The notes beneath the pieces are model-generated. The model made no database searches. It saw nothing but the letters and a program-made list of their open reading frames with translations, and was not told the DNA's origin. Both the position numbers and the translations under genes were made by a program. From Liolophura sinensis (Eukaryota; Mollusca; Polyplacophora; Chitonida; Chitonidae): DNA of 64,000 nucleotides. The stretch spans positions 3,408,001 to 3,472,000 of the forward strand of contig NC_088300.1 of NCBI RefSeq assembly GCF_032854445.1, in the 5' to 3' direction. Position 1 is the stretch's first letter. Each line of letters starts with the position of its first letter. Positions 4,371 through 60,424 of the stretch are shown here, one piece after another.

Positions 4371-4699
4371 AAAATTGTACAATGTTAAACCCTAAGGCAT
4401 ACTTACATACATACACATACAGATATTTATATCTAAAATTTAAACCTTTTGTGAAGACTTCCTGTAAACAGGTAGGCCCCAATCCCATTACACTGACTAG
4501 TAGTGTGTTGAGAAATATTTTGCATATATATTCACTCAACCTCTAGTCAGAGATCCCTCCTTTCGCTGATTGCAGGGCGAATAAGCATGCATTTTACATA
4601 CGGCGCCCAGTGGTAACATCTCCCATTCTCATTGTCACACACAACAAGCTGAATCAGCATTTCTTGTTTTTCTCATGAGTTCACACAGTTTTGAGGAGA

Positions 4700-4800
4700 C
4701 GGGCACTAATTTTTGGTACTTGCTAGACTGATTATATATCTTGCATAGTTGGGTCTGTTGGCTGAACGGTTGCCGTTGGTAGGTATTGTAAAATTAGCTA
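4700..4800 (+). repeat. Dispersed repeat D, copy 1
   Basis: Shares the series GGTACTTGCTAGACTGA, GTCTGTTGGC and ATTGTAAAAT with a copy at 20.5 kb in the same orientation. No coding or tRNA-like features seen. Confidence 0.55.
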
Positions 4801-5497: not shown

Positions 5498-5578
5498 ATG
5501 GCTTCAGGAATGGAGAAGACGAAAGACAAGAAGAAAATGAATGCAAATTGGTGTTCAAAACATTTCCTATCAAAAGAG
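5498..5578 (+). CDS. ZNF106: ZNF106 exon 1 (start codon, first half of zinc finger 1)
   Basis: Encodes aa 1-27, a lysine-rich start followed by WCSKHFLSKE. An acceptor (CTTGTAG) lies at 5481-5487, so a non-coding exon must precede it. TGA directly before the ATG fixes the start. The donor is GAG|GTGAGA, phase 0. The Cys at residue 19 lines up with the second Cys of the family finger; the partner Cys three residues earlier is Ala here. Confidence 0.8.
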
Positions 5579-11500: not shown

Positions 11501-14500
11501 ATGGTAAAGAAGGATAGCTTTGTTCAGATGGTGAAATCACCTCGGTCTTGGAGGGACAGACATAAGCTGGCAGAAATGATGCGAAAGCATGTCAAAACTG
11601 TCCCAAAACGACACGTTTCCATTTCTAATCTTCATCTGTCGGAGATGTTTGCGGATTTACCTGAGCCCACTGGTGAAGTACACCTGGAAAATTTGCCGTC
11701 ACAACTTCAGGTTAAGATTGCTGATCTGATTGAACCTAGCCAGGTGACGGAGTCATGTAGTAAGGATGTGGCAAGCTCATCTGCAGGATTAGATGAGTCG
11801 GCAAAGTCACTATTAAGCAATGACTCAGATTTGGACAGCGTGCTAAAAGCCATCAAGACAGAGCCAGGGCTAAACTCAGTGGACACTCATTTGCCTGTTG
11901 GCTCAGGTCTCAGTAGAAAAACAAGTTTGCAAAGTACTGTCACAGAAACTTCAAAGACTTCACAAAGCAACTTTTTGTCGTCAAAGAGGTCTTCTTTGGA
12001 ACCTAGATCTTGTAATGTTCCTGCTAGTGTTAGGTCAGAACCAATTCCAGATTCCAAGTTATCAGGCCATTTTCCTTATAGTACTACAGGTAAGCCTAAG
12101 ACATGTACAACGTCTCTGAGTTGTCCTGTAACAGGAGGGTTGGTCCAACACGTCTCTTTAAACCAGAAAACTTCTGGAGTGGCCAAGAACACAACAATAT
12201 ATATGACTCCATCAGTGATTCGTTCTTCATTGGCAGATGTTTTGAAATCAACAGCTCCCTCTCCAGTGAATTCCAGCAAATCAAACATGTTTTCAACCTT
12301 GCCATCCCCGTCATTGGTTACACCAGTGGTCTCTTCCCACATCTTACCAGTCCCTGCCCAGACAACGACGACAACATTACCAAGTGGGTCTGTGTCATCC
12401 TCTAGACAGCCTGTTTCTTCCACCATAACAGTCAGTGGTGCTTGTTTGGGAACAAACCGTATCACAAACTGTACGGTTTCAGAGTCTCAGCCTGTGAGTT
12501 CAGCCTCATCTTTTACAGCAAATGTAACCTCCACGGTAACAGCAGCATCAGGTACAAACTCCTCTTTAGTGTCAGCTACGTTAGCTTTGCCCAAACTGTC
12601 CAGTCCACAGACAAATGGTAGAGTAAGGAAGAAATCCCCAGCAGATCCTGGCAAAAGGGTAAGATTCTGTAGTTATACTTCTGCCGTGACTTCTCTCAGA
12701 AACATGTTTTAAGGTCATTTTAAGGAGCTTTTTACTCATTGAGTGTTGTTTTTTGGGGGGCTGATGATTTTGATTCATAAAATTCAGGATGGTAACAGTT
12801 TTGTGGTATGATGCTTGTTGTAATTTTTATGCTGTGAAGTTTACATTAATAGAATTTAAGTATGGTTATGATAAATAAAGTTGGTGTAAATTCTTTAATA
12901 TAAGAACCTTTTTTCGTCTGTTTCAGAAACAGACAAGTCATCACAATTCTCGTTCCTTAACTGAACATGAAGAAGAAGCTAGCGTTAAAAGTAAGTATCC
13001 CGGGGTTAATAATTCCCAGATTTCCAAATTCCCAGACTTCAGTTTTGTAGATTTCAAGCCGAAGGTCTCGTCTCTTATCACATGTAAATTAAGGCTTCAG
13101 TGTGATTAGTTTGTCTCAGGGTAGCTCCAGCAACAGATTGTTGAACAGTAATAGAATTTGTTTCAGATTCCTGCACCTCTGAGACGCTGAGTTATGTGAA
13201 CAGGGTGTTAGAGCTCAGCATGAAAGAGGAGGCACTGCGTGAAGACATCCAGGAAGTGAATAGCCAGATGGACATGGTGCACAGGCTGCTTCTCAATTAC
13301 CAGCTCCAGTTCACTACCCTTGATCGGAGAAGAAATCAGGTGATTTGGTCATACACACTGTGGATCAGGACTCTTTGCTCATGCTGTTAGCATATTACAG
13401 TTGGGACAGTTGATTGCAGTAGCAGAAACCAGGCAAACTGTTAAGATCAAACTGTGTTGAGACTAGAGATGGGGGAAAATCTGTCAAACGAAGTGTGAGG
13501 GATAGAATTTGGTGTGTATGCATGTCAGAGGGTGGAGGGTTTTTTTCTAAGGAAAATAACACAAATTCAGACACAATTTATACACTATGAGGGTAGATGC
13601 AATGATTATTAAAATAAAGTTTGGAGGGGAGAATGAAATATTTTTTTGGGCTTTTTATTATGTTTTAGTTATTGAAGGAGGAGGAATCCCTGAGAGCTGA
13701 AAGAATGAAGATTTTACAGGGTGAGTTTATGTGTGACTAGATTTCAATACTGCAAATAAACCTAACCTTTGGCCTGTAAAAATACACTTTGACAAACATG
13801 TGAAGGCCTTGATGCCAACACTTAATTTTTGTCTGATAAGAATTTTATTTATGTGTATGAATCAGTCAGAATCAAGCAAAAATGTGTCACTTGGAAAATT
13901 AAAAAAAACTTCACGTGAAATACAGTAGTCTTGGGTAACCAAGGGGAAATGAAGTTTCAGCAGTCTTGAGTGTAAAATTTGACTTCTGCAGTTTTTGGTT
14001 GTTATTTTTTTTTTCTCTTTGTGCTGTCGATCTTTCATAGAAGCTGTTTGGGAAGCGGGTCCAAGTCGTTCCTCCAGAGAAGTTCCCAAGAGGACCTCAG
14101 AGGTTGGAACTGAAGATATTGCTGGCTCAGCACAAGTGTCTAGAAATCACAGGCAGGTCAATGGAGGTCAGGAAAGTCATGGAGAGGGCAGAATAAGCTG
14201 TGCTGATCTATGGGAAAGGCGAGCTAGTCATGACGAGAATAGCAGGCTGCAGAGTGAAACCTGCGCCAGTCCTGCTGAACGAGTAACATCCACACTTACA
14301 TATAGTGTTGTACCTAACCATTCCTCTGGGAACTCCCTCACTCAGGAGTCTCGCATTGGAAATGTTACTTCTTCTTCAGGGACAACATGCATGAAAACAT
14401 CAGCTGAGAGAGCAAATGAAAGTGTCCGTCAACAGCCAAATCCAGAATGGCATAGTGTGTCGAGTGGACTTCCTGGTGTGGTAGTCAAGGTAGAACCATT

Positions 14501-34743: not shown

Positions 34744-34800
34744 TTAAAACAATCCAAACAAAGGGCTAGCATATGCCATTGGTTTCACATTCGGGTGTGG
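34744..34800 (-). CDS. PPP5C: PPP5C exon 14 (C-terminus and stop)
   Basis: Codes [18 protein letters not shown] and [14 protein letters not shown] is the conserved PP5 ending; the autoinhibitory C-terminal helix is two residues shorter than in human. Confidence 0.96.
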   Translation of the reverse strand, partial: PHPNVKPMAYASPLFGLF

Positions 34801-37800
34801 CTGGAAAGGAAAACATGACAAGATGTTAATATCTGGGGCTATTCTCCAAACATATCCACTTTATTTAACCATAATATAGCTTAACTATAATAACACCATA
34901 CTCACACAGGATGGCAGTCAGTTCTATAGGCAGTTCTAACTGGAGGGACATGGGTAATACACTGACCTTTGGCAAGGTATTGACAAACTTTTCCACAGGT
35001 GACATGTGCAGACTTGCAAGCCATGTTGGTGGAAGAGAAGTGGTCTTCAAACAATATAAGACTGTGTAACCAGCACACTATCACCTTAAACATTTTGTGT
35101 AACCAAGGCCATTAAAGTCACAACAAAGAAACGTGCCAGGACAAATTTCACAGATTGAACCCACACATCAACTTTGCTGCTGTTTTGGGTTAAAAACAGG
35201 TAAAATGACAAATACTACTGAACTTAACTAAAATTGCAACATTCTTTATCTGCATATTTGACACAGTGCAAAAGATCCCCTAAACTCTATATTCCAGTAT
35301 GTTCACACATTTTTTATTTAGTACTGTATCTTTTTATTTACATATTAATATTTATATTTCTGTTCCTCTCAAGATTAGGACAGGAGAGAAGATTCCCCCG
35401 CTGGTACTGAGTGACTACTCACCACAGCTTCATATGAGGTAAATTTTGGAGAGAGATCATCGCCTTTCAGATTGATAAATGCACCCTTGTTTCCCATAGT
35501 ATCACTGTAACAGGGCAGAAAATTACAATGACTCAACAAGTTCAATTGGAAAACCAGTCAAGAGCAGAATTCATGCCACAAAGTCACAACAGGGTAACAA
35601 CAAATACATGTACAGAGTAAATGACCCCAAATTTCAACTATGACAAAGTTGTGGCTGAATTCTTACAGTTATCACTGATCTTAGAAAGGTGATTTGAGGT
35701 TTCTTTGAAGGCATGATAATATCCTATTGGAAAAATGTAGGATTTAGCACCAGAAGTAACACTGTATCACTTTTATTTGCCTCTCAAAATGCACATTTCC
35801 GCAAGAAATCTGAGGTCGTACAACGATACCTATGAATGTTCTAGACAAAAACCACACAGAAGGTACTTTACTAAACTTCCCTAAAAAGTACATTTTTCAG
35901 GATGAAAAATTCCAGATACAAGCACCCTGTTACTGCATACTGCACAAGAAACTACAAATAAATGTACTACAAGATAAGCTATTATTTTCAAGAACTGAAT
36001 TTTCTAATTTGAAAATTGACCCTGCGTCAGGGTTGATTAGTACTCTTCATCTAAAAATGAAGGGCATTTGAATGGTTAGTTTAATTTTACGATGCCTCAA
36101 GCTGCACAGAGGCAGTGATATACTGTATGTATCAATATAAATAGAGTATGTTATTATACATAGGCTAAATCCCATGACACAGTACATTAACCAGAGATTT
36201 TATCCTTATGTCCACCTATTCCTACTGTACAAGAGGTGTTCCTCGTCTTGCATGACTTACCAGTAATTTGGAGCAGAGAAAACGGTCACACACTTCCTGT
36301 CATGACTGATCTCGTAGCCATCATTTTTAACCTCATGGCTGCGTATTATGTAATCCAGTTTATTTCTCTGCAGGAATGCCTTGGTAACATCTGGTCCAAA
36401 CTGAACACCTACCCCTCTCTTACTGGGTGATCTGCCACACTGAAACTGAGGGTCTGACCACAGCAACTCACACATGGGCCCTGAAAACAGATCACACACT
36501 CAACCATCATACTGCAATAAACATGTACATGACAATACTTACACATAGACAACTCCATACTTACTCCATCAAACATCACACACAATATTTGGTGCTACAT
36601 GTATTCTCCTGAGTAAATAATTTTCCTAAAAACTTTGCTACATCTCAGCACACATGAATAAGGAATGTGCAGTGAGTTAACTCATATGTATGACACTGGG
36701 AGCTATGGGCAGAATCAGTGTTTTTGTCTATGGTACACATTTACTCTATCGGAAAGCCTTTAAAAAAAAACAGGAAAATCATAAAAGAACATCATGATCA
36801 GACAAAATAAAAGGCAGATTGTTAATGTTATTTTTATTCCATTTTTGAATGTTGGTTCACCCATGAAACACAAAATAAAAGAGGTGTTACCTTAATAAGG
36901 TTGCACTAATCCTGACTGGCACAACACATATATCACACCCACACATTTATCCTTAGTTGTGAATCCAAAATGAAATAGATACACATTTTGTCTGAGAATA
37001 TGTGAAGTTGCTGGTCAACAAATAAAATTATTGTTGTTTAACACTATACTCAATAATTGTCCAGGGGCCTCTGTGGCTCAGTCAGTTAGCACGGCAGCGC
37101 AGGGTAATGACCCAAGAGTTTTCCACCAATGCAATCGCTGTGATTTCAAGTTAAGCTCATGCAGGCTTCCTCTCCGGCCATATGTGGGAAGGTCTGCCAG
37201 CAACCTGTGGATGGTTGTTTCCCCGGGGCTATGTTCGGTTTCCACCCACCCACCACAATGCTGGCCGCTGTTGCATAAGTGAAATATTCTTGAGTACGGC
37301 GTAACACACCAATCAAATAAATAATAATTGTCCATTAATATGATGATGGTAAGGTTTATCAGGAGAAGGTACCAGAGTGCCCGTAATTAACCCTCGACCT
37401 TTGGCAAGTCACTGATAGACTTTCCAAAGTGTCATGTACAAACAAATGGTTAAGCTGTGAACACACGAGTGCCATCAACCGTAAATTGTCACCAGGAACT
37501 TTGCTGAACAATGAGAGTGGGAAAATTCATGACTAGGCTGTGGTTGAAATCTTGTATGCTGGGTGCTGGGAGTCCTGCACCTGTCCACTGAGAGGTGTCA
37601 CGTTCTCAGATAAAATTTTGTGTCCCTTTTGTAAAGCCTTTCATACCACTGTTAAGTCCTACAGTACATTCGTAAACACGCTGTCCAGTCTGAGAAGTCT
37701 TCGATCTTATCGTAAAGTTGGCAAAGCCTTTGGTACATCTGTAACCATTTGAAAAGTCTTCAACATGTGATGTGCTATTCAACATTTATATTAAGCTCAC

Positions 37801-40800
37801 CTGAGTCTGGTGGTTGTTTGTTTCTTTCTATTTTCCTAATGTCATCTAATGTAACCGTGTCTTCTGAAAACAACCCACCATGCATTACCTGTAAACAACA
37901 ACACCACAATAGTTACTACAGACTATTGTATGAGAAGTAATTGTAGGAGGAAATAGCCTATTAACAAAGTTGACAACCCACGGTAACTGACAGGACTAAG
38001 TACATGTACAGTAGAAGCACATTATACCTGACAAGCAAACTGACATCAGAAGAACCACTGAATCTTCCATCATTGGTGGTGAACTACTGTAGTGCTGGCA
38101 ACAGTTGTTAAGCACAATAGTATTCATGTATTGGAGACCAGCTAGCCTATTCCATGTATGATGAAGCTCTGTAAAACCACCTTATCTGGATGCACTTTGT
38201 CATCCTGATTTGGTGCACGCGAATGGTCACATGGAAAATGGGTGCCCTTTGTCCAACTGATTTGGAACAGGCGACTGGTCACATGGAAACTGGGTGCACT
38301 TTGTCCTACTGATTTGGTGCACGCGCCTGGTCAAATGGAAACTGGGTGCACTTTGTCCTACTGATTTGGTGCATGTGACTGGTCAAATGGAAACTGGGTG
38401 CACTTTGTCCAACTGATTTGGTGCACACGAGTGGTCACATGGAAAATGGGTGCCCTTTGTCCAACCGATTTGGAACAGGCGACTGGTCACATGGAAACTG
38501 GGTGCACCTTGTCCTACTGATTTGGTGCACACGCCTGGTCAAATGGAAAATGGGTGCACTCTGTCGTACTGATCTGGTGCATGCGACTGGTCAAATGGAA
38601 ACTGGGTACACTTTGTCCTACTGATCCGGTGCATGTGACTGGTCAAATGGAAATTGGGTGCACTCTGTCGTACTGATCTGGTGCATGCGACTGGTCAAAT
38701 GGAAACTGGGTACACTTTGTCCTACTGATTTGGTGCATGCGACTGGTCAAATGGAAACTGGGTACACTTTGTCCTACTGATTTGGTGCATGCGCCTGGTC
38801 AAATGGTAACTGGGTGCACTTTGTCCTATAGATTTGGCGCATGCGACTGGTCAAGTGGAAACTGGGTGCAAATTGTCCTACTGATTTGGTGCATGTGACT
38901 GGTCAAAAGGAAACTGGGTGCACTTTGTCCTACTGATTTGGTGCATGCGACTGGTCAAATACAAATTGGGTGCACTTTGTCCTACTGATTTGGTGCATGC
39001 GACTGGTAAAATGGAAACTGGGTGCACTTTGTCCTACTGATTTGGTGCATGCGACTGGTCAAATGGAAACTGGGTGCACTTTGTCCTACTGATTTGGTGC
39101 ATGCGACTGGTCAAATGGAAACTGGGTGCACTTTGTCCTACTGATTTGGTGCATGCGACTGGTCAAAAGGAAACTGGGTGCACTTTGTCCTACTGATTTG
39201 GTGCACGCGAGTCATCACATGGAAACTGGGTGCCCTTTGTCCTTCTGATTTGGTGCACGCGACCGATCAAATGGAAACTGGGAGCCCTTTGTCCTACTGA
39301 TTTGGTGCATGTGACTGGTCAAGTGGAAACTGGGTGTACTTTGTCCTACTGGTTTGGTGCACACGAGTGGTCACATGGAAACTGGGTGCACTTTGTCCTG
39401 ATTTGGTGCGTGCGACTGGTCACATGGAAACTGGGTGCACCTTGTCCTACTGATTTGGTGCACACGCCTGGTCAAATGGAAAATGGGTGCACTCTGTCGT
39501 ACTGATCTGGTGCATGCGACTGGTCAAATGGAAACTGGGTACACTTTGTCCTACTGATCCGGTGCATGTGACTGGTCAAATGGAAATTGGGTGCACTCTG
39601 TCGTACTGATCTGGTGCATGCGACTGGTCAAATGGAAACTGGGTACACTTTGTCCTACTGATTTGGTGCATGCGACTGGTCAAATGGAAACTGGGTACAC
39701 TTTGTCCTACTGATTTGGTGCATGCGCCTGGTCAAATGGTAACTGGGTGCACTTTGTCCTATAGATTTGGCGCATGCGACTGGTCAAGTGGAAACTGGGT
39801 GCAAATTGTCCTACTGATTTGGTGCATGTGACTGGTCAAAAGGAAACTGGGTGCACTTTGTCCTACTGATTTGGTGCATGCGACTGGTCAAATACAAATT
39901 GGGTGCACTTTGTCCTACTGATTTGGTGCATGCGACTGGTAAAATGGAAACTGGGTGCACTTTGTCCTACTGATTTGGTGCATGCGACTGGTCAAATGGA
40001 AACTGGGTGCACTTTGTCCTACTGATTTGGTGCATGCGACTGGTCAAATGGAAACTGGGTGCACTTTGTCCTACTGATTTGGTGCATGCGACTGGTCAAA
40101 AGGAAACTGGGTGCACTTTGTCCTACTGATTTGGTGCACGCGAGTCATCACATGGAAACTGGGTGCCCTTTGTCCTTCTGATTTGGTGCACGCGACCGAT
40201 CAAATGGAAACTGGGAGCCCTTTGTCCTACTGATTTGGTGCATGTGACTGGTCAAGTGGAAACTGGGTGTACTTTGTCCTACTGGTTTGGTGCACACGAG
40301 TGGTCACATGGAAACTGGGTGCACTTTGTCCTGATTTGGTGCGTGCGACTGGTCAAATGGAAACTGGGGGCCCTTTGTCCTTCTAATTTGGTGCATGTGA
40401 CTGGTCAAATGGAAACTGGGTGCAAATTGTCCTCCAGATTTGATGCATGCGACTGGTCAAATGGAAACTGGGTGCACTTTGTCCTACTGATTTGGTGCAT
40501 GCTACTGGTAAAATGGAAACTGGGTGCACTTTGTCCTACTGATTTGGTGCATGCAACTGGTCAAATGGAAACTGGGTGAACTTTGTCCTACTGATTTGGT
40601 GCATGCGACTGGTTAAATGGAAACTGGGTGCACTTTGTCCTACTGATCCGGTGCATGCGACTGGTCAAAAGGAAACTGGGTGCACTTTGTCCTACTGATC
40701 CGGTGCATGTGACTGGTCAAATGGAAATTGGGTGCACTCTGTCGTACTGATCTGGTGCATGCGACTGGTCAAATGGAAACTGGGTACACTTTGTCCTACT

Positions 40801-43800
40801 GATTTGGTGCATGCGACTGGTCAAATGGAAACTGGGTACACTTTGTCCTACTGATTTGGTGCATGTGACTGGTCAAGTGGAAACTGGGTACACTTTGTCC
40901 TACTGATTTGGTGCATGCAACTGGTCAAAAGGAAACTGGGTGCACTTTGTCCTACTGATTTGGTGCACGCGACTGGTCAAATGGAAACTAGGTGCGCTTT
41001 ATACAAGTTTACATATGACCAAAATTTTATGAGAATTTATACATTTCGCTTTTGCTGATTTTTGCATGTTTTTACAACATAACAGATCTCGTGATCAGAA
41101 CGCTCAAAACCTTGACCAAAACGCAACCCTACTTCTCTAAAACAGAATTCACATTCAAAGGTTGAACATAAAATGACATGGAGTACTTACTAAAACTTTC
41201 TTATTTATACAATGTGCCAATGGTAGCCAGTTGAACACTTCCGTGAATAAATCTGCCATCTGCTGGGAATATGTGGGTTAAATGTCAAGGTCATCAAGAA
41301 CTTTAAATTGATAGCTAAGCATGTAAAAAATAAGAAATATAACAAAGAGAAAAACAGTTTTATATTACAGTAATTCTTCAACAACCTTTCGCAAATTTGC
41401 AAGATGTTTATGCAAGCACATTTTGAAGGCATTATTCTGTGTATACACATAAAATTATACCTCTCTTTAAGCTGTGACACTGACCAATGCAACTGATGGA
41501 GTCTCCAAAATCAAATTCAACATATGCATAAATTCCACTAAAAGTTGCTCTTACCCATGTCAAAAGGTTGAGGACTTATTATATTATGTAAGTGCTGAGC
41601 TTCTACGTGAAACCGCCTATTGCGTTGCTGTTACATTAACACAGCAGCTCAGCTTCTACGTGAAGCTGCCTGTTGCGTTGCTGTTACATTAACACAGCAG
41701 ATCAGCTTCTATGTGAAGCTGCCTGTTGTGTTGCTTTTACTTTAACACAGCAGCTCAGCTTCTACGTGAAGCTGCCTGTTGCGTTGCTGTTACACTAACA
41801 CAGCAACTCAGGTTCTACGTGAAGCTGCCTGTTGCATTGCTGTTTACATTAACACAGCAGCTCAGCTTCTACGTGAAGCTGCCTGTTGTGTTGCTGTTTA
41901 CATTAACACAGCAACCCAGCTTCTACGTGAAGTTGCCTGCTGCATTGCTGTTACTTTAACACAGCAACTGAGCTTCTATGTGAAGCTGCCTGTTGCATTG
42001 CTGTTTACATTAACACAGCTGCTCAGCTTTTACGTGAAGCTGCCTGTTGCATTGCTGTTACATTACACAACAGCTCAGCTTCTACGTGAAACTACCTGTT
42101 GCGTTGCTGTTACATTAACACAAGAGCTCAGCTTTTACATGAAACTGCCTGTTGTGTTGCTGTTTACATTAACACAACAGCTGAGCTTCTACATAAAACT
42201 GTCTGTTGACATTAATCACACAAGATCTGTAATATTCCACATATACCGAAAATGAGACTTTCTGAGTGACATGGTCCGTTTGGCTGAGAAACACCAATGG
42301 TTTGTTATTTGCCTTCAACACAAGAGTCTAAGACAGTTCAATTAATTATGGTTAAAGTTTACCACACATGCAAAAGGATATTTGCTCTTAACCTCTCCTT
42401 CAAAACCGTACATCTGGTTCATTGTCACACTTTCATGGTTTCCTGTAATTAACAGAAAAGTTTGGGTCACATGGCTTTTATGTGATATGTGATGTGACAA
42501 AGCATACAGCGTATTAACTTTTACCCACCTGACCATATACGGATCCACACAAGTAATATAACTGTATGAGAGAATATTTGTGATGTTGACCCCATAATCT
42601 GTCTTACAGTTTCAGCTGTACTGAAATATGAAAGATTTGAAGACAAGGCTCAGTAAATTCTACATTACAAATGCTACTGAGCGATCTCCTGTAGCACTGA
42701 AAGCATGAGGAGGAGATGAGTTTTTTCGTTATTTCCAAGAAAACACCATACAAGATCAGAAACTCACAAAAATGCTGCAGAGTATGTTTACATACCTCTA
42801 GCCATAAAGAAATGGTCTGGATAGAGCAGCTTGAAACCTAGCAGGGTGAAGATACACTCCACTGAGAAAGAGCCTCGGTCCACAAAGTCACCGTTAAACA
42901 GCTGGGTGGGTTGTCAAGGAGGATATACACTTACATATACAATTGTGTAATTCAGGTGAACAAAAAACACACGCACACACAACACACACAATGTATTAAC
43001 TGCAGGCCTCGACATAAGAAGCGATCGAACCGGCTGATCGCCTGTCGGTCTCCTAAATGTACATTCAGGGGAACAAATTTTCGATCACCACATAAACTCC
43101 AGGGGAATGATAATTTCCGTGTTGGCAAGTAGGTTACAAATAGCTAAATTTATTTTACTTACAGGAAAATCTGCACAAACTTTATGCCGGTTTAAAAAGA
43201 AAAAGAACTGACCACCTATGTCGGTAAAATGAAAATGGCTGCTTGCATCGGTAAGCGTAGACTCCTTATATTTAATGTGACCTATGATTGGCTCAGTGAA
43301 AATTGCGTGACCAATGAAATGTTTCGTTTAATAATCCCAAATACATGTTCGCATCTCTGAGGGGTTTGTGGACGTACATGGTTTGAAAAATGACTTAGAA
43401 ACAGAATATTGACTGTAATTTAATGATTAATATTTTAATTAAGGCTATTACCATGTTAAAATTGATCAATATCAATTATATTGAGAATATTATTAAAATC
43501 AATACATACCTATGACAATTCTCTGTATTAGTTTTCTTTCAAACACGATCAAACCTGATTCTTAAAATGAAGAAAACATATAGCTTGTATACTGGGGCCA
43601 ATTCTCTTCACACGGCCTTTCTGTAATCAGTTTGTGAAGCTAACATATGGGTTTGGGGTTCCCATACACCTTTCTAGAGAGTACGGTCCCCCTGATTACA
43701 GAAAAGTCGGCAAAAAGAACGCACAAGATTGAACGAACTGTGTAGGCTTAAGGTGATCAATCGAGGCGATCGACTGATGGGGAAGGGGTGACCAGAACTT

Positions 43801-46800
43801 AGATGTTCTGACTGAAAATCCAGGAGAACGATTTACCGATCCCCTCGTTCATCCTTAAGGCGAGGTGTTAATTGCAAAGATTCACCACAAGAATGCAGTA
43901 ATACAAATGTATAAAGCCCTGGCTAATACTGTATTATACAAAAACTTGCTCACACAATAACTTCACCATGAAAGTTACTGGACTGTTCGTCTATCTGTCA
44001 GAAGCTAGATAGAAAAAGTTATTCACAAATTCTGATAAAATTGTCTTCACAAGAGAACCTTGGTCTAAGGGCCAATCCGTTAAATTTTGGTTGTTGGCCA
44101 AATGTGGATTCAGGAATTTTTTTTTCAGGATATTACAAAATGTAGAGTATTTTACCTTTGTTTGTGCGGGAATTTAAACATTTAGATGTGACAAAGGTTT
44201 GCTCTTTAGAGAGCCTTCTAGCTTTCATTTCAAGGATACATAAGGGTTTACTTTAGATGGAAAGCCATTCAGTTCAAATATATTCATTAAATCATAAAAC
44301 TGTCCATGGATATCACCACACACTGTGAACTTCTCATTCTGAAATAGAAATAATACATCATAACACCATCCATGAATATACGCACACACTGTGAGCTTTT
44401 CATTCTGAAACAGAAATAATACATCTTAACACTGTCCATGGATATCACCACACACTGTGAGCTTCTCATTCTGAAACGGAAATAATACATCTTAACACTG
44501 TCCATGGATATCACCACACACTGTGAGATTCTCATTCTGAAACAGAAATAATACATCTCGACACTGTCCATGGATATCACCACACACTGTGAGCTTCTCA
44601 TTCTGAAACAGAAATAATACATCGTAACACTGTCCATGGATATCACCACACACTGTGAGCTTTTCATTCTGAAACAGAAATAATACATCGTGACACTGTC
44701 CATGGATATCACCACACACTGTGAGCTTTTCATTTTGAAGCAGAAATAATACATCTTAACACTGTCCATGGATATCACCACACACTGTGAATTTCTCATT
44801 TTGAAACAGAAATAAAGCAATATCGTACTTCTTGTAACTCAAAGACATGATGATACATGATAGAACTGTTCATGGATTTCAGCACACAGTATGAGCCTCT
44901 CATCCCGAAACAGAAATAATTGGCCACAAAGCAAATATGTGAGTGATTTCTTGCATTAACAAAGCATATGTCAAAAGGCAAAAGTTATCATCGGGTCTTT
45001 GAACAAAAACAGAATCAAGTGTATACTGACTGATGTCAGATACTAGCAAAACTTACCCCAGGGATTGTTATATCAACAAGAGAAGGCTGAGATGAAAAGA
45101 TTTCTTTGGCCTGGAGTAAAATCTGAAAACAGACACATTTTATATAATATACAAATAGAATTACATGCGGATACTAAAAAGATTTATTTATTTATTTGAT
45201 TGGTGTTTTCGCCGTACTCAAGAATATTTCACTTATACGACGGCGGTCAGCATTATGATGGGTGGAAACCGGGCAGAGCCTGGGGGAAACCCACGACCAT
45301 CCGCAGGTTGCTGACAGACCTTCCCACGTACGGCCAGAGAAGATACTAAAAAGAAAATTCTAGAAAAAAATTTTGCACCTGCATATGTTGTGTAGTGTAA
45401 TTTGGGAGATCATCCAGTGAGGAAGGCCCCAAAACCAAGAAATCCCTGTTGGCTGACCTGAAAATAATCCAGCCAATCTAAAAATGGTGTCCTGTGGCAT
45501 GGTATGTCACTTAATTATACATTTTAAATGTCTGTCAGCAACTTGTGTTACAATTTCCTTTGATAGCCAAAACATTGCGCTTGACGAAAATATAGTTGAT
45601 ACAAGACAAGTTACATGAGAGAGTACAAATGGGTCTTTAAGGAACTGTCCTGGAAACAGAGTTACATGAGAGAGTACAAATGGGTCTTTCTGAAACTGTC
45701 CTAGATACAGAGTTACATGAGATGGTAGAAATGGGTCTTTCTGGAACTGTCCTAGATACAGAGTTATATGAGAGAGTACAATGTACAAATGGGTCTTTCT
45801 GGAACTGTCCTAGATACAGTTACATGAGATAGTAGAAATGGGTCTTTCTGGAACTGTCCTAGATACAGAGTTATATGAGAGAGTACAATGTACAAATGGG
45901 TCTTTCTGGAACTGTCCTAGATACAGAGTTATATGAGAGAGTACAATGTACAAATGGGTCTTTCTGGAACTGTCCTAGATACAGAGTTATATGAGAGAGT
46001 ACAATGTACAAATGGGTCTTTCTGGAACTGTCCTAGATACAGTTACATGAGAGCGTACAAATGGGTCTTTCTGGAACCGTAGATACAGAGTTACATGAGA
46101 GAGTACAATGTACAAATGGGTCTTTCTGGAACTGTTCTAGATACAGAGTTACATGAGATGGTACAATGTACAAATGTTTTTTTCTGGAACTGTCCTAGAT
46201 ACAGAGTTATATGAGAGAGTACAATGTACAAATGGATCTTTCTGGAACTGTGCTAGATACAGTTACATGAGATGGTAGAAATAGGTCTTTCTGGAACTGT
46301 CCTAGATACAGAGTTATATGAGAGAGTACAATGTACAAATGGGTCTTTCTGGAACTGTCCTAGACACAGAGTTATATGAGAGAGTACAATGTACAAATGG
46401 ATCTTTCTGGAACTGTTCTAGATACAGAGTTACATGAGATGGTACAATGTACAAATGTTTTTTTCTGGAACTGTCCTAGATACAGAGTTACATGAGAGAG
46501 TACAATGTACAAATGGATCTTTCTGGAACTGTGCTAGATACAGTTACATGAGATGGTAGAAATAGGTCTTTCTGGAACTGTCCTAGACACAGAGTTATAT
46601 GAGAGAGTACAATGTACAAATGGATCTTTCTGGAACTGTCCTAGATACAGTTACATGAGATGGTAGAAATAGGTCTTTCTGGAACTGTCCTAGATACAGA
46701 GTTATATGAGAGAGTACAATGTACAAATGGATCTTTCTGGAACTGTGCTAGATACAGAGTGAAAGCTTATTTACTTAGGCACAAAACTTAGTTGCTCAAT

Positions 46801-49800
46801 CATCCTTTTTAAAGCTCTACCAATCTTGTTCAATTCAGTCTTCTGTTGCATTTCAAGGTCTAATTATCTTCTACAGCTTACATATGCCCTTAATATTTCC
46901 GCTCCGGGCACGGTACCCCTCTTGTTTTACCTTCTTACTGTTGAGCACAACTTTTTATGTGGCTTTGTGACAGCGATGAATTATTCAGAATCTGGCAAAA
47001 TTGAAAACTTGAAAACGGCTAATCTTCAGGCGAAATACAGTAAATTACTTGTACCCACCTGGTATGCATATTTTCGGTGTAATTTCTTTTGGTCTTTGAA
47101 AGTTAGCATAAGCTGTGTCATGAACTCTCCTGTGACTTTCCCACCTTCCTCCATCTCAGGGCCCTCATATTCATCTTCTATGGCTGAAACATGGGTGATA
47201 AAGTGACTGAGAAAATTTCTACTAGTCTCTTCCTATCATGATTTCTCACACATCCAGATTTCTCAAACATCCAGTCCCATACTACTTTAGACTAAAACTA
47301 CATTGGACTTAAATCTCAAGTGCAAGTACCCTAATTCCTCAACTTTCAGTGAAATTTGTGCAAATTTTAATTTGACTTTGGAGACAAAACTGCATAGGTT
47401 GGATTGACCAATTTCAGGGCTTTGCAATTGTATAATTTTATCAGTCTACACAAAATAATACCTTCAGAATATGCTTGAAAAACACCTTGCAAACAACTGA
47501 AAAGGTTGTAGAACTACAGTAAAACTAGAAATTGATACCAATTTGAGTTTGGAGGAAATGTTTTTTTGTCTCTTATAAGCAGAATACACTCATCACAAAA
47601 CAAAATGTAAAGTGCCTAGTGCTGTTTTACCCATGCTTTCCAAATCAATCTGCTCTGCTACTGACTTATCATCCACAGCAATGGCCTTCTCAAATGCTAT
47701 CCTCTTCACAATCTTATTACATTCATTATATTTGGCCCGGGCATCTTTGTCATTTGGCTTTGCTTTAGCCACCTAAAACACAAGGAATTAATATAGCAAA
47801 CGATCTCTATTTTCGATAAGGTAATATGGTCAGGGTTTCAAATTACTAATATACGTATATAATTAAAGGATACCTGAAAAGGTTACTGGTACCACAGCAC
47901 GCCAGCGCGGCGTAATGACCAAGGAGCTTCCTATCAATGCAGTAGCTGTGAGTTCAAGTCCAGCTCATGCTGGCTTCCTCTCCGGCCATATGTGGAAAGG
48001 TTTGCCACCAACCTGCGAATGGTCGTGGGATTCCCCTGGGCTCTGCCCGGTTTCGTCCCACCATGATGCTGACCGCTGTCATGTAAGTGAAATATTCTTA
48101 AGTACAGCGTAAAACACCAATTATATAAGCAAATGAAAAGGTGCTACAAAACCATGAGTATGGTTTTTAAAAATTTGAAGATAAATTTGCCAAAAATTAT
48201 ATATTTTTTTTTCACATTTTTAAGGCACAACCCTCTATTTTATACATATTTTTGGTCAAAGGTCAGATATATTTGGAAGTGACAACAATGACATGACTGA
48301 TGAACAACACTGAAGTGACGACATTGACATGATTGATGAACAATTCGGGCTACCCACCCAAACTAAGCTGATCTGATAGCTATCACTGTTGACCTCATCA
48401 CAGCAGGCTACTTAATTTTAAGAATGATGACTAAGGCCTTATAAAAACTGAAGCTCAAAGGCATTTTACTTCTCCCCATGAGGAAAGTTGAGAAGCCTTT
48501 TTGTACTTCTATATGTTAGGCCACATCATATACTCGCCATTAAAACCAAGAGCTTCATGTATCCTTCAAGCAAAATTTTTCATTCTTTGCACTGAAAAAA
48601 AGCAAAACGAAAAGAATCACTCTTGTAAACAAACACATATTTTAAAATACCAAATGGGAAGGACAGTTTTTCAAATATTTTCTCAATTCTCAATACTCAC
48701 AGCTTCAAAGTCTTTCAAGGCAAGTTTAAATTTGCCCAAGGCCATGTTAGCAGATGCTCTTCTGTAATATGCCTACAAAACACATATAAAGCTCATGACA
48801 CACCAAGGTTTTACACTGTGTTCAGCATATGTTACTTGCACCAGCAGCATTTAGACGCATAAACTATATACATAAAATATTTTCATTTCCACTTCTAAGC
48901 TTCACAAAATAGAGTGCTGTAGCAAGGCTAAATACTGAATCATGTACCACCTTCCATCAGTTTTTGGAGTTGCCACATAACAGCAAGGTGACTGGTCAGT
49001 TATGAGTTTATGAGAAAGAGCATTCCACCTTCATTACTATACCTTAACATATGTCTTGTCCAGCTCCAAGGCTTTGGATGCATCTGACAGTGCATAACCA
49101 AAGCACTCTGTACGGAGATAGGCCAAGCTACGGTTCCCATAGTATGCTGCTACAAAAGGATTCAGTTCTAATGCCTGAGAATAAAATGTTATAGCCTGGC
49201 TGTAGTCTTCCTCTGCAAAGTAATAATAAAAATATCAAAATTTAAATATTAAGATGGCCATCTCCCTTTTGATCTTTATGAATAGAAAAAAAAGAGTATA
49301 TATAGAGAACAGTTGATGAGATATGAGCTCAAGTTTTCAAAATGATTTATAAACATAAACCAAGTCAAAACAAATTTGGTGAAAACTTTAAGCACGTAAC
49401 ATTCACCATGTTTTAAGCTGATTTTCTGTCAGTAACTTCGCTCTGATAGGCTGCTCAATTGTCTTTATAGTTTCAGGGTGAAGAGAAACAGAATAAGTTC
49501 TGTACATAATCTCTGGCCTAAAGACTGCAACCTGGGAGAAGTGATGGCTGAGGGAGACCGAGACATTGCCATACATTAATATACAGACACCGCTGCCACC
49601 TATTTTTATTCTTCTCTCTCTGCAGAATCTGAAGGGTACAAGAGGCTAACTCAGTATGCTTGTGATTGTTAAAAGAAGATTGGTATTTTCTCAGTTGGCA
49701 GCCTTCTGATTTCAAAGAATGTTTTACGTTGAGTTTATAATTCTTCTGCTCATATTGGCAAACTTGTGCCATATTTCAATACTTTTTGTTAACATATTTT

Positions 49801-51314
49801 ATCCACAAATTCCTCACTCTCTCTCTACCTGGCCCATGTTTATTAACAATGACATTAAAGGGAGCGAGTGGGTGTGTTGGTGGAATGAGCACTTCAGCAC
49901 CTGAAATGGACTAAACTAAACATCCCTTTTGAATAAAGTTTTAGTTTCACACTGCTGGGATGTTGCAGGGGGTAGCCCAAGCCTGCAGGCCTCCACTCCG
50001 TAAACACAAAAGTACTCATCCTATTTAATTCCATGAGTAAAATTTTACTTACATGTAGCTCAACGGCGTGCCCTCATCCTTGTGTTTGGTATACACTAAA
50101 TCCCAAAATCATTTAAAGTGTCAAAACCGAAAGTGATAACCCCCACCCCTCTACCAATATTCTAGCCACTGAAACATTTCAACTTAAAAGTCATATCGAC
50201 ACATGCCATATTTCATACTCCAACCTCATGCAAATTACATGCTGGCGGTTTGAAAATTTTCTTTCAGAAAATTCTTCTCTGTCACTGAGAATTTGTTTTG
50301 TATTTTTGTTTTGCCTTCAAATATAAGAATATTGCAGTCGCTGGATTTTGTTGTCAACAGTCTATCTTTTAAACAGCCAACTTGTATATTTCCATAGGTC
50401 CTACTTCAAAAATATGGTGTGTGCTGGTTGTACGTGTTCAAATTAATTTTGAAAGTTTTAATGGCTGGATTACGGTTAAATTATGGTTTATGAACGCAGT
50501 ACTTGATACGTCCACTAGTCCGACACTGCTCTGATGTTAGGTTTGGCAAAAAGTTCGCTCCACCAAGGGTGGTCACAAACCATGCAACGTCAGAGCGCAC
50601 TCCATTTCTTGTCTTTGTCAAAACCAAGAAATATTGGGCCAACAACTGATCCATGTGTTCGTGATAAATTGACACACTGACACAAAAGGAACATAAGTGT
50701 CGGTAACTTCAGGACATATAGAGACGTATTTTAATGGGCAATTTTTATAAGGTTTTTAAATGGGGCGTACGACGTTGGTTTGGGCCATCCCTGGCTAAAC
50801 AACATTTTGCCAAACCTAACGTCGCTAACAATCTCGCATTAATTTCTACCAGCCAGATGCCTTGGGGGATCTAAAATTGTTCTCGATTTACAAAGTTGAG
50901 TCCTGTTCGCCTGGACTATGCATGGGAAGCTCTGTTCCGTATATTTTAACATTTTACCCCGGTTCTGCATTTGTCCAGTCTCATTCGTACTGCAATCTCC
51001 TGTCTTTTATTAGCTGTCAGACAAAGGGAATGTTCAGAGTTTGCAGACCTAAACTAATGATCAATACAAGTGTGGTGGCCATCGAAATTTGGGCCCTTGA
51101 TGATACCACTTTTACTGACCGATGCAGCTTTTATGACGCACCAGGCCTTCACACGACTTTATTGTTGCTTACTTTTGAAGAACTGATTGGCTTTTTCTTT
51201 GACTTCCTCCGCTTTAATTTTATCCTCCTCTGTTAGCGAATCTTTCGTCTTCAGGAGGGGCTTTCCAGAATTTTTTGGCGTGATTTCCTCGTTTATCGCC
51301 TCGCCGTCGGCCAT
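34744..51314 (-). CDS. PPP5C: Serine/threonine protein phosphatase 5 (PP5), 14 coding exons
   Basis: Exons in transcript order: 51314-51173, 49212-49043, 48772-48701, 47772-47631, 47183-47059, 45122-45057, 44338-44240, 42901-42796, 42442-42363, 41262-41191, 37888-37801, 36480-36261, 35504-35423, 34800-34744. Total 1521 nt, 506 aa; human PP5 has 499. N-terminal three-TPR domain (about aa 35-150) that binds Hsp90 and autoinhibits, then the PPP catalytic domain. Metal and catalytic residues are all present: D248 and H250 (GDIHGQ), D277 and R281 (GDFVDRG), N309 and H310 (GNHE), H361 (MHGG), R409, H436 (RSHEV), Y460 (SAPNY). The protein dephosphorylates Ser/Thr in Hsp90-client and stress pathways. 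The start is the only ATG giving the family N-terminus, within a YY1-like AAGATGGCC. Confidence 0.97.
34905..35085 (-). mobile_element. SINE family C tail fragment
   Basis: GGATGGCAGTCAGTTC, ACTGACCTTTGGCAAGGTAT, TTGACAAACTTTTCCACAGG and GGAAGAGAAGTGGTCTTCAA match the tail of the copy at 31.3 kb. It sits in the last PPP5C intron; no head is present. Confidence 0.6.
35423..35504 (-). CDS. PPP5C: PPP5C exon 13
   Basis: Codes [20 protein letters not shown] then FTSYEAV after completing the Cys of APNYC. Acceptor TGTTACAG, donor GTG|GTGAGT. Confidence 0.97.
36261..36480 (-). CDS. PPP5C: PPP5C exon 12 (RSHEV, SAPNY)
   Basis: The largest exon, aa 388-461: [59 protein letters not shown]409, H436 and Y460 complete the active site. 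Confidence 0.98.
37064..37322 (+). mobile_element. SINE family A, full-length copy in PPP5C intron 11
   Basis: Full head (GGGGCCTCTGTGGCTCAGTC), B-box-like GATTTCAAGTTAAGCTC (mutated), complete tail. Perfect 12-bp target duplication AATAATTGTCCA at 37052-37063 and 37323-37334. Antisense to PPP5C. Confidence 0.95.
37345..37455 (-). mobile_element. SINE family C tail fragment
   Basis: CTCGACCTTTGGCAAGTCAC then TGATAGACTTTCCAAAGTGT, similar to 34.97 kb. Short and diverged, directly after a family A SINE. Confidence 0.5.
37801..37888 (-). CDS. PPP5C: PPP5C exon 11 (MHGG motif)
   Basis: Codes [20 protein letters not shown] then [10 protein letters not shown]361 is a metal ligand. Acceptor TTTACAG, donor G|GTGAGC. 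Confidence 0.97.
38213..41005 (+). repeat. 52-bp minisatellite, about 53 copies, PPP5C intron 10
   Basis: Unit TGTCCTACTGATTTGGTGCA then TGCGACTGGTCAAATGGAAA and CTGGGTGCACTT. A 933-bp block is duplicated inside it. The array ends about 190 bp from exon 10. Open frames inside the array are by-products. Confidence 0.96.
38506..40371 (+). repeat. Two tandem 933-bp copies within the 52-bp array
   Basis: From 38506 and again from 39439 the same series of variant units occurs (ACACGCCTGG, then CTCTGTCGTACTGATCTGG, then GATCCGGTGCATGTG, a CTATAGATTTGGCGCATGCG unit, and so on) up to the TCACATGG/TCAAATGG difference near 39420/40353. Copies look identical by eye, so the duplication is recent. Confidence 0.85.
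41191..41262 (-). CDS. PPP5C: PPP5C exon 10
   Basis: 24 codons: [20 protein letters not shown] then KKVL. A family-typical segment between the GNHE and MHGG motifs. Acceptor TTCCCAG, donor TTA|GTAAGT. Confidence 0.96.
41590..42205 (+). repeat. 53-bp minisatellite, about 11 copies, PPP5C intron 9
   Basis: Unit TCAGCTTCTACGTGAAGCTG then CCTGTTGCGTTGCTGTTACA and TTAACACAGCAGC; units differ in 1-2-bp indels (TTACATT/TTTACATT). Confidence 0.94.
42363..42442 (-). CDS. PPP5C: PPP5C exon 9 (GNHE motif)
   Basis: Codes [20 protein letters not shown] then KYPFACV. N309 is a metal ligand and H310 the general acid. With donor GTG|GTAAAC the product has three more residues before QMADLF than human PP5; TGT|GTGGTA would give two. 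Confidence 0.9.
42796..42901 (-). CDS. PPP5C: PPP5C exon 8 (GDFVDRG motif)
   Basis: Codes [20 protein letters not shown] then [16 protein letters not shown]277 bridges the metals, R281 contacts phosphate. Confidence 0.98.
43003..43872. mobile_element. Possible DNA transposon or MITE, PPP5C intron 7
   Basis: Imperfect terminal inverted repeats: CCTCGACATAAG on the left, complement of CTTAAGGCGAGG on the right. Flanking TATTAACTGCAG and TGTTAATTGCAA look like a diverged target duplication. Both ends carry GATCG-rich sequence, and TTCTGTAATCAG / CTGATTACAGAA form an internal inverted repeat (43617-43702). No transposase seen. Confidence 0.35.
44240..44338 (-). CDS. PPP5C: PPP5C exon 7 (GDIHGQ metal-binding motif)
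   Basis: 33 codons: [20 protein letters not shown] then [14 protein letters not shown]248 and H250 bind the catalytic metals. Of nine related segments this is the only one followed by the full [12 protein letters not shown] sequence and a donor (TAT|GTATCC), so it is the functional exon. An alternative donor AAA|GTAAAC would drop the conserved VNPY. Confidence 0.95.
44339..44925 (-). repeat. Tandem partial copies of PPP5C exon 7 with its 3' splice site
   Basis: Seven 66-bp units (equivalent starts 44404, 44470, 44536, 44602, 44668, 44734, 44800) plus one older diverged copy (44850-44925). Each has TTATTTCTGTTTCAG, then 39 bp coding [13 protein letters not shown], then TGT-TAC/TAA/CGA/CAC-GATGTATTA. 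The AG is intact in the five units nearest the real exon and lost in the next ones. Unit 44404 codes AYIHGW instead of GDIHGQ. Some unit junctions carry TAA stops. Confidence 0.93.
45057..45122 (-). CDS. PPP5C: PPP5C exon 6
   Basis: 22 codons, [20 protein letters not shown] then PG, leading into the GDxHG exon. Donor GGG|GTAAGT. Confidence 0.95.
45182..45341 (-). mobile_element. SINE family A, 5'-truncated copy, PPP5C intron 5
   Basis: Minus-strand tail and body (TTGATTGGTGTTTTCGCCGT, CAGCATTATGATGGGTGGAA), cut off at TACGGCCAGAGA. Perfect 12-bp target duplication GATACTAAAAAG at 45170-45181 and 45342-45353. Confidence 0.95.
45600..46765 (+). repeat. 58-bp minisatellite, about 20 copies, PPP5C intron 5
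   Basis: Unit CTAGATACAGAGTTATATGA then GAGAGTACAATGTACAAATG and GGTCTTTCTGGAACTGTC. Shorter variants lack the GTACAAT duplication or the GAG. Ends about 290 bp from exon 5. Confidence 0.95.
47059..47183 (-). CDS. PPP5C: PPP5C exon 5 (start of catalytic domain)
   Basis: Codes [20 protein letters not shown] then [21 protein letters not shown], the conserved [13 protein letters not shown] segment. Confidence 0.97.
47631..47772 (-). CDS. PPP5C: PPP5C exon 4 (TPR 3 and linker)
   Basis: Codes [40 protein letters not shown] and QIDLESM, the third TPR and the helix leading to the catalytic domain. Donor G|GTAAAA. Confidence 0.97.
47884..48133 (+). mobile_element. SINE family A, 5'-truncated copy, PPP5C intron 3
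   Basis: Begins inside the tRNA-like head (CAGCACGCCAGCGCGGCGTA), with B box GAGTTCAAGTCC and a near-consensus tail. Probable 9-bp target duplication TGAAAAGGT at 47875-47883 and 48134-48142. Confidence 0.88.
48701..48772 (-). CDS. PPP5C: PPP5C exon 3 (TPR 2-3)
   Basis: 24 codons, [20 protein letters not shown] then DFEA; the YYRRAxxNMALGKF block is a PP5 hallmark. Includes an Arg used for Hsp90 tail binding in the family. Confidence 0.98.
49043..49212 (-). CDS. PPP5C: PPP5C exon 2 (TPR 1-2)
   Basis: Codes [40 protein letters not shown] and [16 protein letters not shown], two TPR motifs with the usual NRSxAYL and A-xx-ALELD positions. Confidence 0.98.
50532..50823. mobile_element. MITE-like inverted repeat, PPP5C intron 1
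   Basis: GATGTTAGGTTTGGCAAAA at 50532-50550 and its complement (one mismatch) at 50805-50823, 292 bp apart. No ORF within. The arms extend weakly outward. Confidence 0.5.
51173..51314 (-). CDS. PPP5C: PPP5C exon 1
   Basis: Codes [20 protein letters not shown] and on to [14 protein letters not shown], an acidic N-terminus then the first TPR helix. Donor A|GTAAGC, phase 1. Confidence 0.95.
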
Positions 51315-54719: not shown

Positions 54720-56350
54720 CACTGTTGCCCAAAATGATGGAATAAAATATTTTGTACCAGATTTTCCCAAATTTGCACCAGATTTCCCCCAAGATTTTGG
54801 GCTACCAAGAAAATTTTAGACATTTACCATCTTCGGTTAAAGGTGGAACCATTTGCAATGTTACAATGTCCAGAGAATGCAAAATGGTGAAAGGAATACA
54901 AAACCAGAAGATTTAGCTTCAATTGTTGAGATTTAATGTGACCATAAGATCCAAATGAAAACAAATGAATCGATGAACTTGCCAAATGGGAATGCACAAA
55001 TAAAGTCTCAGCAACAGATTAAAAGTCTCTAGTAACATGTGTGACCACCTATGGCACGAATGAGGGCAAGGAGACGCCGCGGCATACTATCTACGAGGTT
55101 GTTGATGACGTCAACGTGCATAGCGTCCCACTCTTCCCTCAGAGCCTGTGCCAGTTCTTGCAGGGTTTGAGGTGAATTGTCCCGGTCCTTGATCGTACGG
55201 CCAAGGACATCCCAGGCATGCTCGATGGAGTTCATGTCAGGCGCACAAGCTGGCCATGGGAGCTGCTCCACACCCTCATCCCAAAGAAATTGTCAGACGA
55301 CGTTGGCCCTGTGTGGCCTGGCGTTGTCGTCTTGAAGCCGAAAGTTGTTGCCGTCGACTTGTCTTGCATGTGGGAAGCATTGTTCCTGTAAAATATTCAG
55401 ACACATGGCGGCGTTGATGTTTCCTTCCGTCACGAAAACCTCTGTTTTGCCACCATGATGAATGCCACCCCACACCATCATTGAACCGCCACCACCTTGA
55501 GGGTACTCCCGGACAAAGTCATCATGGAGGTTCTCGCCACGCAATCTCCGAACCCTTTGTCGTCCATCTTGTCGGTCAAGGATGTATCTGCTTTCGTCAG
55601 TGAAGACGACATGACGCCAATGGCCGACCTATAACGCCCGGTTCCCCCCTAACCCAAAGCAGTCGTGCAACACGATGCGGAGCAGTCAGACGTGGACATG
55701 TGACCATCCGTCTTGCTCAATGCCCTGAATCAATAAGTTGTCGATTCACGGTTTGGCGTGAAACACGAACCCCATAGTGTTGCCTCCACAAGAAACGGAG
55801 AAGGCTGACGGGCATTCTGCGGTTTGTTCGACACAGGTGTATCAGTCTCCTGTCTTGTCGTCTTGTGGTCGAACGTGGACGCCCTGTTGACTTTCCTGGC
55901 GTTAACTGATGTACCTCTCTGACGCGTTTCAGAATCTTAGAGACCGCACTTTGTGATATCCCTGCAAAAGTGGCGATATTGGCCTGTTTAAACCCTTTCC
56001 GTCTTAGGACAACCACCTTCCGTCGAATCGCTAGTGGCGTAGGAGCAGGCATGACACTGTGAACTTCTATGCCAAAATTTGCGTCCATGAAATCAGAGAT
56101 GGCCTAAACAGAAGGCCTGTTTATATAGGGGTGCAGCCGGAGAGAAAGTACGAAACTTAAATTGTGTCGCTTTACATGGCTCTCAACCTAAGGCCCTTCC
56201 ACGTAACTAAATTTTTGGCTTCCACTTACATAAAGGGTCCTTCGTATAATAGTTAGGAAGAGCCAAGTGTATTGCAGGGAGGACCAAATACTAGTATTTT
56301 CCAGAAGCATAACCTGAATTAATCTTATTCCATTATTTTGGGCATCAGTG
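54720..56350 (-). mobile_element. Tc1-like DD34E transposon nested in the Penelope element
   Basis: Terminal inverted repeats CACTGTTGCCCAAAATGATG (left) and CACTGATGCCCAAAATAATG (right, minus strand) extend further as GAATAARAT. TA is duplicated on both sides (54718-54719, 56351-56352). Length 1631 bp. The transposase is on the minus strand with frameshift and stop, so the copy is non-autonomous now. Confidence 0.94.
55029..56088 (-). pseudogene. Tc1-like transposase, frameshifted
   Basis: N-terminal part (56088-55717): MDANFGIEVHSVMPAP, a helix-turn-helix (IATFAGISQSAVSKILKRV) and a GRPRSTTRRQDR hook. After a frameshift the catalytic part reads FTDESRY (first Asp), MVWGGIHHGGKT, DDNARPH (second Asp) and NSIEHAWDVLGR (Glu). 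Exactly 34 positions separate the second Asp and Glu, counting an in-frame TGA at about 55293. Ends IGGHTCY and stop. Confidence 0.92.
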
Positions 56351-59490: not shown

Positions 59491-59761
59491 GAGGCCTCCG
59501 TGGCTCAGTCGGTTAGCGCGCTAGCGCAGCGTAAAGACCCAGTAGCCTCTCACCAATGCGGTCGCTGTGAGTTCAAGTCCAGCTCATGCTGGCTTCCTCT
59601 CCGGCCGTAAGTGGGAAGGTCTCTCAGCAACCTGCGGATGGTCGTGGGTTTCCCCCGGGCTCTGCCCGGTTTCCACCCACCATAATGCTGACCGCCGTCG
59701 TATAAGTGAAATATTCTTGAGTACGGCGTAAAACACCAATCAAATAAATAAATAAAATAAA
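59491..59761 (+). mobile_element. SINE family A, full-length copy near consensus
   Basis: The cleanest copy: A box TGGCTCAGTCGGTTAGCGC, B box GAGTTCAAGTCC, tail with ATAA repeats. Perfect 11-bp target duplication TAAAAGAAGCA (59480-59490 and 59762-59772). Recent. Confidence 0.96.
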
Positions 59762-60424
59762 TAAAAGAAGCAATATTAGGCTAATGTGCTGACTACTAGT
59801 GTTTCGCTTGACAAACACTGTCCCTATTATAATATAAAGATGACATACTGGAATAATCACAGTCCATTCACCAGTCGAACATCCCCCTCAGCAAGCGATC
59901 TTTTTATCTGAACAGTTTATGCACTAAACATGACGCGAACGGTTACATTTGGAACAAATGAAATGACACGTAGTGCTTAAAAAATAGTACCTTCTGGAAA
60001 CAGAAACAGTGATTTAGAGACAGGTAAAAATCTGTATTTATGACAAAACTGGTCATGTTATGGATTGACTTTTTTACGTGTACGTGTGACAGGGGCCGTC
60101 TTTTGTATCATTGACTTCATGTTTCACACAATTCTTCGGTATCGTAATTTAGTACTGTAAAAGAACAAAAAATAAAGAAAAAACCCGTCAATCCAGATGG
60201 AATCACCTAATAACGGTTTCGTTCGTCAAGACACACGCTGGTTCCTATTTTTCATAATTGGTTTATGTAGGGTTACTTTGAAGGCGCTTGAGCTTTTTGG
60301 TACTCCGGTGAAGTCTAATCATGTGTTACAGGCTTAGTCGACGGTAACTTGTCTCACATGCGCGTAATGATGTCTGTCTTGGGGCGTTTGTCAGACTTTT
60401 TGGTCTGTTGCGATGCCCTTTATG

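Follow-up and report, generated by a model that had tools for sequence, protein, structure and literature searches.

Rows of near-identical splice sites formed by tandem duplication across an intron/exon boundary have been described as mirages in amphioxus (PMC3087553), with PGBD5 and troponin C as further amphioxus cases in the excerpted part of PMC3902484. One amphioxus mirage has 6 units on one haplotype and 3 on the other, mirages have been proposed as a source of new introns, and Adh3 data together with RT-PCR of globin transcripts suggest that regular splicing is left undisturbed (PMC3087553). In human segmental duplications, tandem repeats over exon boundaries can alter splicing and give rise to new introns, as far as the excerpt of PMC2812944 goes. 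Among the top-ranked literature matches no report of mirages in molluscs was found; those on boundary minisatellites concerned amphioxus and human duplicated genes.

Here we describe such a row at exon 7 of PPP5C in the chiton Liolophura sinensis, within a window of 64,000 nucleotides (contig NC_088300.1, positions 3,408,001–3,472,000; positions below are those of the window unless another locus is named). The repeat unit spans the intron/exon boundary, and the copies lie on the intron side, beside an intact authentic exon. The array resembles amphioxus BflGb6 in joining the 3' end of an intron to the 5' part of the next exon in several units (PMC3087553; PMC3902484, excerpted part), many of them with intact splice signals. 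It differs from the amphioxus mirages in belonging to a mollusc, in a unit length that is a multiple of three (66 bp, against 150–160 bp in BflGb6 and 10–72 bp in Adh3) and in showing divergence of the edge units only in part; it is known from the sequence of one haplotype, whereas the amphioxus mirages come with RT-PCR and a second haplotype. The human repeats are likewise minisatellites over exon–intron boundaries, with 27 intron modifications given in the passages of PMC2812944 used here, but they came to light where paralogues differ, and in the transcripts splicing is altered and new introns appear. UBC also has a tandem row of near-identical splice sites within one gene; in the excerpt of PMC10809524, however, its AGGT serves as both donor and acceptor and yields random isoforms, whereas in PPP5C it is an acceptor that has been copied.

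The PPP5C gene is otherwise intact. Its 14 exons lie on the minus strand of the window (coding span 34744–51314, from the gene model and alignment to phosphatase 5 structures), and when joined they form a 503-residue open frame which, with the acceptor at 44338, can be aligned over residues 34–500 with serine/threonine phosphatase 5 chains from the Protein Data Bank, at up to 777 bits. Exon 7 of the gene model (44240–44338, minus strand; 33 codons) encodes the metal-binding GDIHGQ and follows intron 6 (44339–45056, minus strand; GT–AG, phase 0), and the array lies within the 3' part of that intron. Directly 3' of exon 7, intron 7 (42902–44239, minus strand) has ends that we take to be U12-type (gtatccttga ... 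ccttgac ... cag, that is, gtatccttga ... ccttgacaacccacccag), and intron 9 (41273–42381, minus strand) is presumably also U12-type, in the AT–AC form (atatcctttt ... ccttgacatttaacccac). Two minor-type-looking introns thus stand near each other in this gene, the first of them immediately after the exon with the array.

Tandem Repeats Finder delimited the array at 44291–44815 (period 66, 8.0 copies, 92% matches, no indels, score 873); counting exon 7 itself and an older copy at 44850–44920, the repeat finder gave nine copies. The boundary that opens exon 7 (44338, minus strand) recurs at 44404, 44470, 44536, 44602, 44668, 44734 and 44800, spaced exactly 66 bp apart at the end of intron 6 and immediately upstream of the exon. 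The older copy, U0 (44854–44920, minus strand), aligned to the exon boundary (44920–44854 against 44354–44288) with a score of 69, which was reached by none of 1000 dinucleotide shuffles (mean 18.2, maximum 32). The repeat finding and the shuffle-tested alignment thus bear out the seven 66-bp units and the older copy that an earlier note on this DNA had placed directly upstream of exon 7. In a search of the 609-Mb assembly (609,464,459 bases, 632 contigs), which can miss repeats, the 66-bp unit had 8 matches, all to the array or the exon. A Pfam Metallophos profile search did not detect the array itself.

Five of the seven units keep an AG at the boundary (five of eight if U0, whose acceptor position reads GG, is counted). 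These are the five nearest the exon, U3–U7, and the two farthest, U1 and U2, read AA, so that the boundary sequences agree with what had been claimed for them. All units are on the minus strand. In the nearest decoy, U7 (44339–44404; AG at 44406–44405), AYIHGW replaces GDIHGQ and the frame stays open. U6 (44405–44470) and U5 (44471–44536) combine a decoy AG with an in-frame TAA (44428–44426 and 44494–44492, respectively), while U4 (44537–44602) and U3 (44603–44668) have a decoy AG and are themselves open. The acceptor is lost (CAA) in U2 (44669–44734) and U1 (44735–44800), and U1 contains an in-frame TAA at 44758–44756.

The unit was previously thought to consist of 27 bp of intron and 39 bp of exon; the acceptor joined to the exon start holds, but the exon part is probably longer. 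Exon nt 40–51 match the seven units at 7 to 10 of 12 positions (10/12 in U7), and beyond nt 51 the resemblance falls to 6–8 of 15 (8/15 in U7). Because the resemblance to the exon runs through nt 51 and then drops, the founding duplication probably took in about 51 bp of the exon and about 15 bp of the intron end. The weak protein resemblance once noted between the non-exon part of the unit and the exon sequence that follows is accordingly in part DNA homology with exon nt 40–51, with the shared YD as its trace.

The units differ in how far they have diverged. U2–U6 differ from each other at 2–6 of 66 positions, and U7 differs from them at 8–10. U1 differs from U2–U6 at 11–12 positions, 9–10 of them in the tract (flanking sequence) and 2–3 in the 39 positions of the exon-like part; since this exon-like part has barely diverged, the pattern expected of a mirage, homogenised interior units with diverged edges, holds only partly. 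At exon nt 10 both U1 and the real exon 7 have T, and U2–U7 differ there. The GDIHGQ region is identical to exon 7 in U1–U6 and changed in U7 alone (44339–44404), where six changes (an adjacent GTG to CGT and three more) leave the frame intact. Variable positions over U2–U8 numbered 9/39 in the exon-like part and 7/27 in the tract, and no claim about selection within the array is drawn from them.

Splicing to the nearest decoy at 44404 would give a full 525-residue frame, 22 residues longer than the normal one, exactly as foreseen. The other four decoys with AG lead to stops at codons 254, 254, 276 and 298; the prediction that they would truncate PP5 stands, and the TAA codons are those listed above for U6, U5 and U1 rather than ones near 44416 and 44482. 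The earlier note's reading of an exon-seeded minisatellite is thereby supported, and its gene, acceptors and coding consequences were correct. On an acceptor matrix built from ten U2-type acceptors of PPP5C, which are few, the real acceptor at 44338 scored 8.44, four decoys 10.11 and one 9.76. The decoys thus stand 1.3–1.7 bits above the real acceptor on this small, ten-site matrix, the lower score of the latter being due to an A at −7 where the decoys have G. Site strength does not favour the real acceptor, nor would it explain the decoys being ignored. Within the last 42 nt, a URAY motif (TGAT, beginning at −22) was present only before the real acceptor, a single observation that may have arisen by chance.

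Comparable arrangements were found at other exons of the genome. A tandem duplication across an exon end was present in 5 of 71 other exon matches: 0/24 kinase, 2/15 metallophosphatase and 3/32 CCT. With PPP5C (1 of its 14 exons) the total is 6/85 in a small, non-random sample that includes donor-side and acceptor-side cases. The kinase sample consisted of the best 24 of 138 listed matches, many of which span most of the domain in one frame and hence represent loci with few introns. The metallophosphatase sample comprised 15 of 29 listed matches, chosen before any duplication test and taken together with roughly 130 to 760 bp of flanking sequence, and the CCT sample 32 of 57 listed matches, picked as compact gene stretches. 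The self-duplication scan covered the whole locus for kinases and metallophosphatases, and 1 kb on either side for CCT, PPP5C and random segments. Among the positive cases, an exon of an rdgC-like phosphatase (L049) has its array on the donor side, and a PP2A-type exon (L046) has a degenerate duplicate on the acceptor side, detected by self-comparison (76% over 117 bp) and not by Tandem Repeats Finder. The other three are donor-side arrays, two of them belonging to CCT gamma (L058) and the third to CCT epsilon (L056). Among the kinase matches, a 29-bp internal Tandem Repeats Finder match in L035 was not counted as a boundary array, and L025 and L027 had short arrays within 300 bp. A unit length divisible by three was considered as a sign of function and rejected: it is not a rule, because the other boundary arrays have periods of 45, 66/88, 109 and 47–107.

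One CCT gamma array (L058 1458–1918, minus strand) is made of 66-bp units through six of which the frame is open (VCRLVISLLVPGGGATEMALAQ-like), followed by 88-bp units, and it keeps GT in 10 of 11 decoy donors. The CCT gamma array (exon at L058 1872–2063) and the CCT epsilon array (exon at L056 3030–3179) lie in the same region of the two paralogues, at the GGGA-E stretch close to where the exon ends; this may be chance or may reflect G-rich, recombination-prone sequence.

The surrounding genome is rich in tandem repeats. Arrays of period at least 10 account for 19.0% of the window and for 11.2% of 150 kb drawn as fifteen 10-kb samples. Coverage among the samples was uneven (0 to 58.5% each; 7.8% overall without L007), and over 38 exon-centred kinase and metallophosphatase loci it was 1.8%. 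In L007, a single merged tandem array (5–5858) occupies more than half of the 10-kb sample. Of 300 random 270-bp segments from the fifteen samples, 70 were duplicated on the same strand no more than 1 kb away, and in 61 of these the duplicate was at least 40 bp long. Within PPP5C itself 31% of the gene span consists of tandem arrays, and much of intron 10 is taken up by 54 copies of a 52-bp minisatellite (38186–41000).

Array placement relative to exons was compared with random placement in five CCT stretches and PPP5C, where most exon ends are profile-match or first-pass ends and not final ones. One exon edge was held by 4 of 10 arrays against 2.2 expected (P 0.14), or against 2.9 when the swallowing of exons was disallowed (P 0.33), so that targeting of exon edges was not significant in this set. 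Contact with any exon was seen for 4 of 10 arrays, where 5.6 were expected (P 0.20 for 4 or fewer). Random placement would have 3.9 arrays swallow an exon, and none did (P 0.0008), a deficit of the kind that purifying selection produces. Over six arrays, the GT or AG of decoys was intact in 29 of 34 (counted by eye, without a formal test, from an ungapped scan whose identity cut-off favours intact copies and may miss lost or shifted ones). This is roughly the retention to be expected of such similar copies without selection.

Taken together, we think it quite probable that the array is a boundary-spanning minisatellite close to neutrality, and that the exon-proximal acceptor at 44338 is the one normally used. 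By this account, the stretch over the intron 6/exon 7 boundary (the 15 bp of intron and 51 bp of exon estimated above) would have been duplicated in tandem, and the duplicated boundary would then have multiplied as a minisatellite, leaving near-identical acceptors in a row, a mirage. The acceptor at 44338 would be chosen because it alone directly borders the exon body and the downstream donor, and the decoys, mostly ignored, would be near neutral. Selection might come from exon definition through the donor of intron 7, or from the URAY-type branch motif that begins at −22 of the real acceptor. The presence of comparable arrays in unrelated genes argues for a general mutational cause, and the PPP5C array has probably arisen as a side effect of the abundance of repeats in this genome. 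Against this reading count the higher scores of the decoys, the human boundary repeats that affect splicing (PMC2812944), the unevenness of array coverage and the slight divergence of U1 in its exon-like part.

Overlapping with this account is unregulated leakage, in which more than 1% of splicing would go to the decoys, their transcripts being degraded or giving a little of the +22-residue protein, at a mild cost tolerated by drift. We regard this as possible but somewhat doubtful. The acceptors are near-identical and the decoys outscore the real site, which makes leakage plausible, and used but unannotated sites are hidden in introns of higher eukaryotes according to the excerpt of PMC10809524; against this, published accounts hold that no aberrant mRNAs come from the mirages of amphioxus.

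The same five intact decoys and their scores would also suit a functional array, whose regulated use would yield the +22-residue PP5 from the nearest site and, from the farther ones with their stops at codons 254–298, truncated messages that lower PP5 dosage. In the part of PMC8034651 drawn on here, components of the minor spliceosome help to define the upstream U2-type acceptor. By analogy, definition of exon 7 could be sensitive, given the U12-like donor 3' of it. However, in the by-eye count decoy signals are kept no more often than neutrality would roughly predict, AG is lost in two of the seven units and the metal-binding motif in the nearest one, similar arrays occur in unrelated genes, and the amphioxus data suggest regular splicing, a conclusion carried over from another phylum. 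We therefore consider a functional array improbable. For the proposal of the earlier note that the array may tune PP5 dosage or make isoforms, the one observation that would speak is that the decoys are intact and score at or above the real acceptor.

An assembly artefact is very improbable. Tandem arrays are prone to mis-assembly, and an aberrantly assembled mirage has been met in a draft genome (PMC3087553). The present assembly, however, was built from PacBio HiFi reads with a mean length of 8,347 bp (PMC11068029, excerpted part), far longer than the roughly 530-bp array, so that single reads should span it; moreover, the units differ from each other, and an older diverged copy flanks them. 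The copy number of the array in the assembly could nevertheless be wrong. Tandem exon duplication leading to mutually exclusive or cassette exons can practically be dismissed: each unit does hold an acceptor, coding sequence and weak donor-like GTGTG words in its exon part, but the copy ends at about nt 51 of 99, without the 3' end or donor of the exon, the space for any intron between units is very short, and a test of U0 for exon sequence past nt 39 gave no significant match, its score being equalled or exceeded in 847 of 1000 shuffles.

Rows of the PPP5C type offer a natural competition experiment, in which near-identical sites differ mainly in their distance from the exon body, and they bear on how the spliceosome chooses among equals (by proximity, exon definition, order of transcription or branch site). 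Taken alone, the PPP5C array is rather ordinary, and what is new is the apparent recurrence of mirages in a mollusc; several cases in a small sample of chiton exons suggest that such arrays may arise wherever minisatellites are abundant. A wider proposition, which we hold to be rather unlikely, is that boundary minisatellites are pervasive in the chiton, with near-identical splice-site rows at thousands of exons and measurable use of decoys. Were it true, such rows, some of them in frame (66 bp in both PPP5C and CCT gamma), would give length-variant proteins or degraded messages that differ among individuals, and the use of decoys would feed exon extension and intron gain. Heterozygosity in Liolophura japonica is about 1.2% (PMC11068029, excerpted part). 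The frequency of decoy use could be read from public RNA-seq data of five chiton tissues, namely digestive gland, foot, gill, gonad and heart (PMC11068029; for example SAMN35319765–SAMN35319768).

Other repeats in the window were recorded alongside the array. An open frame of 946 codons (9872–12712, plus strand) holds an in-frame 51-bp minisatellite (array at 10687–11399) with 14 copies of 17 residues each, SATPVESSGPTSVSRST-like. Stretches at 45160–45335, 37078–37386, 47934–48143 and 59550–59887, one of them in PPP5C intron 5, appear by eye to be copies of one dispersed repeat and resemble a mollusc SINE. Broken open frames at 55029–56103 (minus strand) resemble a Tc1/mariner-type transposase.
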